Virus record (IMG/VR): IMGVR_UViG_3300008267_010201 | Span: 1 to 35,870 of that record | Source of the DNA: a virus | Reading direction: 5' to 3' (one strand) | DNA: 35,870 nt | Part shown: positions 29,029 through 31,639 of the stretch, piece after piece | Position numbering within the stretch: position 1 is the first letter of the stretch | Layout: every line of letters begins with the position of its first letter | Translations under genes and position numbers: made by a program | The notes under the pieces: model-generated | The model's database searches: none | The model's input: only the letters and a program-made list of their open reading frames with translations | What the model was told of the DNA's origin: nothing

Positions 29029-29099
29029 AGTCAGATGGTGTAACGGTAGCACAACAGATTTTGGTTCTGTTTGTTTTGGTTCGAATCCAAGTCTGACGA
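29029..29099 (+). tRNA. tRNA-Gln (anticodon TTG)
   Basis: Acceptor AGTCAGA (29029-29035)/TCTGACG (29092-29098) has six Watson-Crick pairs; the terminal A1-G72 pair is mismatched, and in tRNA-Gln this pair is normally weak. Anticodon stem ACAGA/TCTGT closes the loop TTTTGGT, giving anticodon TTG. The T arm is TTTGG-TTCGAAT-CCAAG. CCA is not encoded (ACAA follows). It is the best-formed tRNA of the island. Confidence 0.85.
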
Positions 29100-29160
29100 C
29101 AACCCGTCGGAAGCTCATCATGACCCGAGTGAGATGAAAACGCGGATATCGGGTCTTTAT
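29100..29160 (+). ncRNA. Hairpin spacer between tRNA-Gln and the next tRNA-like RNA
   Basis: GACCCGA (29122-29128) pairs with TCGGGTC (29149-29155), a 7-bp stem enclosing 20 bases, followed by TTTATAG. An alternative TCATC/GATGA pairing overlaps it. It may be a processing hairpin or weak terminator. No gene is present. Confidence 0.4.
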
Positions 29161-29243
29161 AGTCAGGTGGCGGAATTGGATAGACGCTAGGGTAACCTAC
29201 CCGAGAATGAAAGTTTATACAGGTTCGAGTCCTGTTCTGACTA
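29161..29243 (+). tRNA. tRNA-like RNA, class II, without U33
   Basis: Acceptor AGTCAGG (29161-29167)/TCTGACT (29236-29242) pairs fully with one G-U. D stem GCG/CGC and T arm ACAGG-TTCGAGT-CCTGT (29219-29235) are regular, and a variable arm of about 15 nt suggests a Leu/Ser-type RNA. The anticodon stem TAGGG/CCCGA has an A-G mismatch and the loop TAACCTA has A at position 33. The same bases can form GGGTA-ACC-TACCC instead. The anticodon read as ACC would not suit a Leu-like body. It is probably not a decoding tRNA. Confidence 0.6.
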
Positions 29244-29399
29244 CGCAAAAACAAACGGCCTAGTTCCTTACCTCGTAAGAGATGGGTTTGAAAGCTTTGA
29301 CACGCACGACAACTAGGAATGGATGCATACTGAACTAGCTCTGTGAACAATCGAGAAGAATACCTCACTGGTGCGTAGGTTAGTTTCAAGTTCTTCTGA
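29244..29399 (+). ncRNA. Structured spacer RNA upstream of tRNA-Leu
   Basis: Two 7-bp closing stems are visible: CCTAGTT (29259-29265)/AACTAGG (29311-29317) and AGAAGAA (29354-29360)/TTCTTCT (29391-29397). Each encloses 30-45 bases, the size of small domains. No T-loop motif (TTCGA) occurs, so these are not tRNAs, and no frame is convincing. It may be a separate ncRNA or the leader of the Leu tRNA. Confidence 0.4.
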
Positions 29400-29489
29400 C
29401 TGTTTGTGGTGAAATAGGTAGACACGCAGGACTTAAAATCCTGTTCGCCGAAAAAGCGAGTGCGGGTTCGATTCCCGCTGGGGGCACCA
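29400..29489 (+). tRNA. tRNA-Leu (anticodon TAA) with an unpaired acceptor stem
   Basis: D arm GTGAAATAGGTAGACAC, anticodon stem CAGGA/TCCTG with loop CTTAAAA (anticodon TAA), variable arm TCGC/GCGA and T arm GCGGG-TTCGATT-CCCGC are standard tRNA-Leu, and CCA is encoded (29487-29489). The 5' strand CTGTTTG (29400-29406) cannot pair with TGGGGGC (29479-29485): five G-U pairs and two mismatches, with no Watson-Crick pair. Function would require editing or tolerance, or the 5' strand derives from another RNA. Confidence 0.75.
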
Positions 29490-29827: not shown

Positions 29828-30210
29828 GGGGATAACCGGTATCGATCCGAATGATGAGATAATACCACATGCAGGCATTTGAGTATACTGCCTTAGAAGA
29901 TACTAAACAATAACTGACGAAATGTCAACTATGACCTTCGACGACCTTATGGCGTTCGTAGGCGCCGACTACGAATAAGGACAGTGGGATGGAAGCAATT
30001 CCTAGGGTTCTTGATTCCCCGACGATATAAAATCAAGTGGTGGAAACGACCATAAAGGTCAGCCCTTACGGTGCAAAGAGTTGTCTAGGCTTCATGCCTA
30101 TAGTAATGTATGCTGGGAAACCTATTATATATTCTTAGTACTAAGCATGTGAGACGTTGGTGTTATTGTCACTTTCGGAGACGTGGGTTCGAATCCCACT
30201 ATCTCCACCA
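29828..30210 (+). ncRNA. ssrA: Phage tmRNA with an atypical tag
   Basis: A 383-nt tmRNA. The tRNA-like ends pair: GGGGATA (29828-29834) with TATCTCC, including the G3-U70 pair that specifies alanine; GTGGG-TTCGAAT-CCCAC is the T arm and CCA is encoded at the end. CTAAGCATG upstream of the T arm is standard tmRNA. After AATAACT the tag frame starts at GAC 29916 and reads DEMSTMTFDDLMAFVGADYE, then TAA at 29976. TTCGTAG/CTACGAA and CCTTA/TAAGG form helix 5 around the stop codon. It rescues stalled ribosomes. Host tags of this phylum resemble GE..YALAA; this one is longer and acidic and does not end in LAA. Confidence 0.93.
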
Positions 30211-30346: not shown

Positions 30347-30359
30347 ATATATTTATATA
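30347..30359 (+). promoter_or_regulatory. Promoter-like ATATATTTATATA before the structured RNA
   Basis: An ATATTTAT-type box immediately upstream of the first hairpin of the 30361-30736 RNA, with no coding gene between. It would place the RNA 5' end near 30365. No TTG -33 element is seen. Confidence 0.45.
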
Positions 30360-30360
30360 C

Positions 30361-30736
30361 ACAAAGTACTTAGCACAGTTCTCAACGTTTACTGTCCCAG
30401 GCTAAGTCATTTAACAAACTGTGGCCGAACAAACTGTTAAGAGCGGTTAAGGCACTGGCGAAGTGGTTGAAAAACCAATTAGCTGGGTATTACAGGCGAG
30501 TGAGTTAAAACCACCATCGTTCTACGTTGGCCAACGTAATGGACGCTCTGGATACGCTTAAGATTATATCAACTGATCTTTGCAGGCGTTGCTGGTAGTC
30601 AATCCAGCCAGTTATTAACACTGAAACTGATCATTTTAGTGGACTGTGGGTGAAAAGGGGCTCGTCCGAGGATTGTGGGTAGTCAGGATTCCCATCGATG
30701 TTTTAGAGGTAACCGAAAGGTTACCTCTTTTTTTTT
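30361..30736 (+). ncRNA. Large structured RNA of unknown class with intrinsic terminator
   Basis: No coding frame fits, while many helices do: ACTTAGC (30368-30374)/GCTAAGT (30401-30407) around ACAGT/ACTGT; TTAACA (30411-30416)/TGTTAA (30435-30440); a multibranch helix AGAGCG (30440-30445)/CGCTCT (30544-30549) enclosing TGGTT-GAAA-AACCA and a 16-nt palindrome TACGTTGGCCAACGTA (30523-30538); then AAGAT/ATCTT and GCTGG/CCAGC. CCCAGgCTA can also pair with TAGCTGGG as an alternative. It ends in the terminator at 30705-30736. Candidates are ornate phage RNAs near tRNAs (GOLLD, ROOL), but I recognise none of them. Confidence 0.65.
30705..30736 (+). terminator. Intrinsic terminator of the structured RNA
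   Basis: AGAGGTAACC-GAAA-GGTTACCTCT is a perfect 10-bp stem with a GAAA tetraloop followed by nine T. It closes the RNA island and insulates the next gene, whose promoter box begins in the same T-run. Confidence 0.92.
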
Positions 30737-30757: not shown

Positions 30758-31639
30758 ATGGCAGACATTAACCAATCAATTCTAGAAGTAGTAAATAATA
30801 TTATTGCTTCTCCAGCAGTACAAGATCTTACATTTAAAGTATCAAGTGACTGTAGTAAAGACTCAGTATTAAACGATATTGAATTTTGTGATGAAATACA
30901 TTACAAATATTCATATGAAGAAAAATCCCTCAACAATGCATGTATAGATGCTTGTAAAGATGCTAAGTCTCTAGCTTATAGCACCTGTGATGCTGCTAGA
31001 AAAACTTGTAAAAGTGTTTGTTTTGGAATAAAGAGCTGCGAAAATGGATGTGATGATATCTCTAGTGATTGCAAACATGCAGCTGATTCAGCTTATAATG
31101 CTTGTGTTGATGTTTGTGGATATACAATAATCACAGGTGGTGTAGAATTTAAATTAAATTCAGTTAAAGGATGTGGCGCTATAAGAGTAATATCTATTGA
31201 TGCTGTTATACCTAAAGATGACACTAACTCAATATTCTCTGTTAATATGAGTCTATTCCTATCATCAGCAACCGCTTATGCTCATTATAAAATGTGGCAA
31301 GACCCATTACCAGCACTTTCAGGTGATGAAAATGTATATGCTAAAGATATCCCAGGAACTGCTACAGGTACTCTAGTTAAAGTATGTGACGGTGATAAAC
31401 CAGGATATTACTTAACTATTGATTCACTACATATTGATCTTCCAGAAGATACAGATGATACAATTGGTTTAATTCAAATGGCTGAATCAATTGGATTAGA
31501 AGTATCAATTATTACAAACGGTTTAGTTGATATTAATGCTCAATTATTCAGTTTTGTTAATGGATTCTTATCTGCTGAAGTTAAGAGTGTATTGAATGAT
31601 GTTTTAGATGGTATGAAGATAGCTGACGCTGACTGTTAA
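30758..31639 (+). CDS. Cysteine-rich protein of unknown function
   Basis: A 293-residue protein without signal peptide or membrane span. Residues about 32-122 hold twelve cysteines in short spacings (ACIDACKDAKSLAYSTC, KTCKSVCFGIKSCENGCDD, ACVDVC), looking like three tandem Cys repeats; three more occur later. The rest is beta-rich, with FSVNMSLFLSSATAY and a C-terminal EVSIITNGLVDINAQLF. It stands alone between a terminator/promoter and a second terminator, so it may be an abundant protein. A virion or cell-surface decoration role is guessed; no family is recognised. Confidence 0.7.
   Translation: MADINQSILEVVNNIIASPAVQDLTFKVSSDCSKDSVLNDIEFCDEIHYKYSYEEKSLNNACIDACKDAKSLAYSTCDAARKTCKSVCFGIKSCENGCDDISSDCKHAADSAYNACVDVCGYTIITGGVEFKLNSVKGCGAIRVISIDAVIPKDDTNSIFSVNMSLFLSSATAYAHYKMWQDPLPALSGDENVYAKDIPGTATGTLVKVCDGDKPGYYLTIDSLHIDLPEDTDDTIGLIQMAESIGLEVSIITNGLVDINAQLFSFVNGFLSAEVKSVLNDVLDGMKIADADC

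Follow-up and report, generated by a model that had tools for sequence, protein, structure and literature searches.

What kind of RNA, if any, is encoded by an unrecognised stretch of some 370 nucleotides that stands beside tRNA and tmRNA genes in a viral genome? A preliminary description of the window, by which we mean the whole stretch of DNA analysed (35,870 nt, IMG/VR record IMGVR_UViG_3300008267_010201), placed a structured RNA with its own promoter box and terminator at 30361-30736 and suggested that it could represent a new class of large non-coding RNA. The absence of a coding frame is borne out by stop codons in all six frames across the RNA stretch, and the G+C content of the core is 46%, as against 30% window-wide. 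Minimum free energy is by itself weak evidence for an RNA fold, and that of the window RNA gave a z of -1.76, with 6 of 100 shuffled sequences folding equally well. Because folding alone was only mildly unusual, we sought relatives of this RNA. The features to which the following argument refers are:

29029-29478, plus strand: three tRNA genes (29029-29100, 29161-29244 and 29407-29478).
29828-30210, plus strand: tmRNA (63.8 bits); the RNA core begins 206 nt further downstream.
30348-30365, plus strand: promoter-like box TATATTTATATACACAAA; the same 18-mer lies 5' of the RNA in L015.
30366-30412, plus strand: window-specific leader, absent from L014, L015 and the tRNA-embedded homologues.
30401-30618, plus strand: sub-threshold match to the Rfam manA model RF01745 (33.4 bits, cut-off 55.2).
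30413-30704, plus strand: the structured RNA (conserved core 30417-30698 and end-closing helix), based on 33 homologues, covariation and the R1 score.
30424-30453, plus strand: helices 2 and 3, with the 5' signature GUGRCNGAAYAA ... UAAGG (starting at 30421); covariation, element also present in manA.
30464-30477, plus strand: hairpin 4, GAAA loop; covariation.
30496-30665, plus strand: central multibranch domain, closed by helix 5 (30496-30500 with 30661-30665).
30523-30538, plus strand: apical hairpin (h9) with the self-complementary loop UUGGCCAA; UGCGCA or UGUACA in relatives.
30554-30589, plus strand: helix 10, ACGCU / GGCGU; CCCG/CGGG and CCUGC/GCAGG in relatives.
30591-30608, plus strand: hairpin 11, GCUGG-UAGUCAAU-CCAGC; covariation.
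30609-30646, plus strand: helices 12 and 13, with the apical palindrome UGAUCA at 30628-30633; palindrome kept in 28 of 33.
30675-30695, plus strand: terminal hairpin GUGGG-UAGUCAGGAUU-CCCAU (CCCAY in the common layout), corresponding to the terminal hairpin of manA.
30705-30736, plus strand: intrinsic terminator, a GAAA-loop stem with a U-tract; terminators also lie 3' of the RNA in L014 and L015.

Relatives were gathered by pattern scans of IMG/VR and of genome contigs, and scored with a profile HMM and with a covariance model, R1, built from alignment A1 (15 rows, 13 distinct, including two truncated rows, L140 and L145, and two identical pairs). The family comprises 47 full-length loci with 33 distinct core sequences, of 278-330 nt and 81-322 bits. 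The window RNA scores 282.6 bits with R1, being itself among the training sequences of the model. The count of 47 leaves out the truncated L140, L145, L157, L217 and L221 as well as weak or bridging matches below 40 bits, and a few near-identical loci take their coordinates and score from the HMM match or from a sister of the same sequence. A second alignment, A2, has 25 rows, 13 of them found later, and omits truncated rows and divergent members, the latter being held in A3. BLAST against the phage collection returned LR756501/LR756503, aligned over 15% of the query, a weak match to LR756502, and nothing else. The distant relative found in this way corresponds to the 3' part of the RNA in a 735-kb phage, the locus of which holds the whole RNA with the same order of motifs; queries L141, L144 and L241 found no homologues in the same collection. 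Over genome contigs, the 3' pattern gave 0 matches and the 5' pattern 15, among them a single member, L261 (107.6 bits), while L257 (17.8 bits) and L251 (12.7 bits) scored weakly with R1. The L261 RNA (505-822) comes from a contig of 4.1 kb that was assigned to a Bacteroidales MAG and probably belongs to a phage. The RNA is present as one copy per record, with a match in 13 of 16 records (including a 15-bit noise match in L005) and in 11 of 12 records of a second set. Of note, further non-coding, structured-looking sequence flanks the RNA of the 735-kb phage (L008, 960-1240 and 1586-1843), and one of these flanks has a weak sub-threshold match to the Bacteroides sRNA BTnc231.

The comparison of these sequences revealed a common fold. 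RNAalifold on the 15 sequences of A1 yielded 14 helices with a total of 65 pairs, of which 44 vary on both sides. Paired cells amount to 97.4% in A1 and to 78.6% after shuffling (0 of 500 shuffles were as high), and the covariation score is 0.575, against 0.236 in shuffled and 0.075-0.149 in slid alignments. When imposed on the 25 rows of A2, the A1-derived structure pairs 95.1% of the cells, and 47 pairs show both-side changes; A2 folded independently gives 62 pairs, 43 of them with such changes. Helix 5 is exemplary, with both-side changes in 5 of 5 pairs and 100% of cells paired, and the window forms 62 of the 65 consensus pairs. The layout consists of an end-closing stem, a 5' hairpin, the GAAA hairpin, a multibranch domain closed at long range, and a terminal hairpin, with GUGRCNGAAYAA and UAAGG near-invariant across relatives. 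A column-pair search for pseudoknots found no covarying helix of at least 4 pairs beyond this structure. Hence, the window encodes a real structured non-coding RNA, and the covarying phage homologues called for at the outset exist, in 33 distinct versions. The conserved extent is narrower than first proposed, about 30413-30704, and the 5' 50 nt of the original interval are not conserved. Two pairings pointed out by eye did not survive. The AGAGCG/CGCTCT helix (30440/30544) clashes with covarying helices and is absent from relatives, L137 and L141 among them. The possible alternative CCCAGGCTA/TAGCTGGG involves 30396-30404, within the non-conserved leader.

No Rfam family matched the RNA at its gathering score. 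The GOLLD and ROOL models gave no match on the region at E values up to 5, and the view that neither signature is present thus held even in permissive mode. Group I and group II introns and RNase P were likewise discarded, with no match on the region in permissive mode. A tmRNA identity was rejected as RF00023 does not match the RNA, while it does match the separate neighbouring tmRNA. The T4 RNAs rnaC and rnaD were considered for their position and a superficially similar hairpin, and no homology in sequence or structure was found: neither R1 (filters off) nor the Rfam manA model showed any similarity to them. A kinship was found with manA, below threshold. The manA model matched 8 of 11 homologue loci at 23.5-31.1 bits (two of the three missed are truncated), and these matches run end to end, model positions 1-192 spanning whole RNAs. 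In 12 further RNA-bearing records it matched 8 at E<=0.1 and 0 over the cut-off, so that neither the window nor any homologue locus scored reaches the 55.2 bits of the manA gathering cut-off. In the opposite direction, R1 gave 51 matches at E<=1 over 725 kb containing 100 manA loci; two lay off the manA site and 49 on it, that is, in 49 of the 100 loci. The two RNAs thus align end to end in a homologous frame in both directions, and manA-like RNAs of intermediate score (L228, L241, L213, L215 and L195) bridge them. Hairpin P1, which in manA stands 5' of the closing stem, was not recovered, as 2 of its 6 pairs are broken in the alignments of the window and L141. Because the reciprocal end-to-end matches fall below the cut-off and bridging RNAs exist, we file the RNA as manA-related rather than as manA. 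Judged from its sequence, the phage RNA is a remote, enlarged and free-standing relative of manA and not a member of that family. The description as an unrecognised RNA beside tRNAs is thus right at the curated Rfam threshold, whereas the RNA is not an entirely new class, given this distant kinship.

Kinship with manA brings forward a cis-acting role. In the available text of PMC2864571, manA is a riboswitch candidate of 5' UTRs, marine and found in cyanophages, and the available text of PMC9964418 describes it likewise. The phage RNA could accordingly be a riboswitch or leader for the next gene, as proposed for manA, which commonly stands upstream of genes both in the available text of PMC2864571 and in our survey of 97 loci; moreover, a gene (ORF 30758-31636, 293 aa) starts only 22 nt past the window terminator. 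Against this reading, the window, L014 and L015 each have a strong terminator between RNA and gene, a tRNA or tmRNA comes next in most members within tRNA arrays, and no alternative pairing involving the terminator proved to be conserved. A leader of the window's downstream gene was rejected, given that L002 and L004-L007 carry a relative of the gene and lack the RNA. More generally, the members examined (not all 33 were inspected by eye) share no conserved downstream gene, and the RNA is followed by a terminator, a tRNA or a tmRNA instead of occupying the 5'-UTR position of manA. We consider the cis reading very unlikely. As for the ORF itself, the product is cysteine-rich, with six relatives in viral contigs and no PHROG match.

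What accompanies the RNA instead is the tRNA/tmRNA system. According to ARAGORN, 17 of the 33 distinct RNAs have a same-strand tRNA or tmRNA within 50 nt, whereas random placement gives 1.28 such RNAs, with a maximum of 5 in 1000 rounds. The remaining 16 include L015, where Infernal places a tmRNA at 42 nt. Several arrays place the RNA 5-8 nt past one tRNA and 8-13 nt ahead of the next; in the L154 group, for instance, tRNA-Thr ends 5 nt before the RNA and tRNA-Gly starts 8 nt after it. The tmRNA ends 5-9 nt before the RNA start in L246, L233, L222 and L237, and lies 20 nt past the RNA in L146 and L210. Within 700 nt, a tmRNA accompanies 15 of the 33 distinct RNAs, ten detected by ARAGORN and five by Infernal (window, L015, L231, L220 and L218, the last below the cut-off). 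In general, tmRNA genes have been placed in 402 of 18,146 phages (available text of PMC9004378). By locus, ARAGORN finds tmRNAs in 13 of 48 RNA loci, 4 of 50 other pattern loci and 0 of 120 manA loci; the association is non-exclusive because of the 4 comparison loci. A 62-nt element in the L242 record (about 35879-35940, minus strand, G028; RF00023, 40.2 bits) has both tmRNA ends without the messenger part. It follows a manA-like RNA by about 30 nt in a phage with a 19-tRNA array and may be one part of a tmRNA made in two pieces.

The RNA of the window, L014 and L015 is preceded by a TATATTTATA box and followed by a terminator. The terminator was correctly recognised from the outset, as were the tRNAs and the tmRNA, which lie upstream of the RNA. 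The claim of an own promoter box fared less evenly. The box at 30348-30357 does recur just 5' of the RNA in L014 and L015, where the exact 10-mer occurs once each (the window has three copies on the given strand), and the 18-mer counterpart in L014 is TATATTTATAG. Across the whole window, matches with one mismatch are not enriched (25 against 29.8 expected), and we call the box promoter-like only. Some peculiarities of the neighbouring genes deserve mention. ARAGORN calls the tRNA at 29161-29244 as Gly(acc) despite its long gene, as with extra-arm tRNAs, and the one at 29407-29478 was detected by Infernal only. The tag frame of the window tmRNA (29916-29978) reads DEMSTMTFDDLMAFVGADYE* and lacks an ALAA-like end, which is present in the otherwise identical tag of L015, DEMSTMTFDDLMAFVGADYALAA*; the tag may have changed, the gene may be degenerate, or the sequence may contain an error.

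The location in mobile tRNA arrays could also mean that the RNA is a stable passenger, kept merely through carriage and processing with the tRNA cluster. This explanation seems hardly tenable to us: compensatory changes throughout the fold and invariant loops require selection on the RNA itself, which is retained in divergent members, one of them in the 735-kb phage. At least three types of neighbourhood harbour the RNA (L138, L140, L144-L147 and L157; L009, L137, L141, L148 and L149; the window, L014 and L015). They have almost no proteins in common within 7 kb, and no protein family is shared by all types over that distance. This pattern suggests either horizontal spread or great age of the RNA. 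Very probably, the RNA is free-standing and acts in trans.

By contrast, manA proper is mostly found ahead of genes. Its ends could be located in 105 of 120 loci; of these, we kept 97 that were distinct and had 250 nt of downstream sequence. A terminator precedes the next ORF in 25 of these 97; within 250 nt, one occurs in 30 of 97 compared with 25 of 419 random stretches, and a tRNA lies within 18 nt in 7 of 97. In cyanophage contigs, manA is single-copy (9 of 9). A recurring hairpin, GACCTAAGATGCAACT...GGGCAGATGGTC, sometimes a terminator, was noticed 3' of manA in the cyanophage loci L025, L026, L027, L028, L031 and L035. The link between manA and tRNAs is already partly in print: as far as the available text of PMC10832533 goes, transcriptome analysis of the Bifidobacterium megaplasmid pMP7017, which also bears a 20-tRNA array, found a tmRNA and a 178-bp manA, and manA is reported beside tRNAs in some cases. 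A cis role for manA itself, which mostly lies upstream of genes, is possible; even so, its 'cis-regulatory' label now seems worth re-examining.

How a free-standing RNA of this kind might work is hinted at by two of its hairpin tips. The h13 loop (30628-30633 in the window) reads UGAUCA, UAGCUA or UAAUUA, all perfect six-letter palindromes, in 28 of the 33 distinct RNAs. Three further loops are UAAUUG, self-complementary through G-U pairs; with these counted as imperfect, the exceptions are L207, L008, L226, L239 and L223. Overall, 96 of 99 h13 self-pairs are formed, whereas shuffled loops form 83.0 on average and 89 at most in 2000 rounds. The loop differs between L209 and its relatives L144/L146 (UAGCUA versus UGAUCA) and, therefore, at least one palindrome switch is recent, independent switches being few. 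In h9, the 16-nt palindrome first noticed by eye does form an apical hairpin, and many relatives have a different sequence at this place: 20 of 25 A2 sequences have a palindrome of at least 6 nt (UGCGCA in 16, UGUACA in 2 and UUGGCCAA in 2). It is absent in L138, L144 and L146, 4 nt long in L209 and at most shorter in L207. Among distinct h9 loops, 4 of 7 have a palindrome as against 0.82 after shuffling, the shuffle maximum being also 4. Palindromes in the remaining loops are at chance level. Because a palindrome at a hairpin tip cannot pair within one molecule, contact between two copies of the RNA is the simplest reading. Self-association through kissing loops, as predicted from these loops, is a proposal that we rate just short of even.

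Alternatively, the RNA may be a monomeric scaffold or decoy for a host or phage protein, such as a translation factor or an RNase, with the loops serving as protein or loop-receptor contacts. GUGRCNGAAYAA, UAAAACCAC and UGGGUGAAAAGGGG are long conserved stretches in A1/A2 that pairing does not fully account for, which suggests a partner. Large phages encode many host-takeover factors. Nevertheless, the lack of a protein family within 7 kb common to all neighbourhood types speaks against this reading, and the palindromes vary yet stay self-complementary, a property that a sequence-reading protein would not need. We regard this alternative as rather unlikely.

Altogether, we favour, with a probability of roughly 0.65, a stable, free-standing phage RNA of tRNA/tmRNA clusters that acts in trans and self-associates by kissing loops. 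The RNA would be transcribed together with the tRNAs and tmRNA; in the window, the promoter-like box on its 5' side could serve instead. It might then be freed by the processing enzymes of tRNA and tmRNA ends, through RNase P cleavage at the next tRNA and 3'-end trimming of the previous one, and the released RNA would act in trans. The two homotypic kissing loops could join monomers into a dimer or a closed oligomer. The company that the RNA keeps hints at a role in translation or in the tRNA/tmRNA system during infection, and such a target is put forward tentatively. A bolder version, which we find doubtful, takes the RNA for a third kind of phage RNA-only homo-oligomer after GOLLD and ROOL. 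Here, two distinct two-fold interfaces per monomer (30523-30538 and 30628-30633) would build a ring or cage of dihedral symmetry, produced and matured alongside phage tRNAs and tmRNA and serving the translation machinery of infected cells, and manA would be a compact trans-acting cousin rather than a metabolite sensor. In any case, a well-supported structured RNA family is added to the phage tRNA/tmRNA clusters, home to few known non-coding RNAs, and its two short palindromes offer a directly testable prediction of self-assembly. We recognised no published description of the larger family in the literature searched, in which subscription journals were little covered.

Among known systems, GOLLD and ROOL are also large phage non-coding RNAs near tRNA islands, and they form homo-oligomers (available text of PMC12286853). 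GOLLD often exceeds 800 nt according to the same text, whereas the RNA described here is much smaller and bears other signatures; GOLLD and ROOL oligomerise by other contacts, and oligomerisation of the present RNA is a prediction from its palindromic loops. The rnaC and rnaD of T4 (species 1 and 2) are comparable as small stable RNAs beside phage tRNAs (PMC3014915, available text). In the pMP7017 megaplasmid, a manA RNA and a tmRNA likewise share a replicon with a tRNA array; there, the replicon is a bacterial plasmid and the 178-bp RNA is manA proper, read as cis-regulatory (PMC10832533). Compared with manA itself, the phage RNA is longer (about 285 against about 190 nt), has a larger and different central multibranch domain, and neighbours terminators or tRNAs/tmRNAs, usually with no downstream gene, whereas manA mostly precedes genes. 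Both, however, share the closing stem, GUGRCNGAAYAA followed by a hairpin and UAAGG on the 5' side, the terminal hairpin GGUANNCAGGAWUCC, an occurrence in T4-like phages and a single copy per record.
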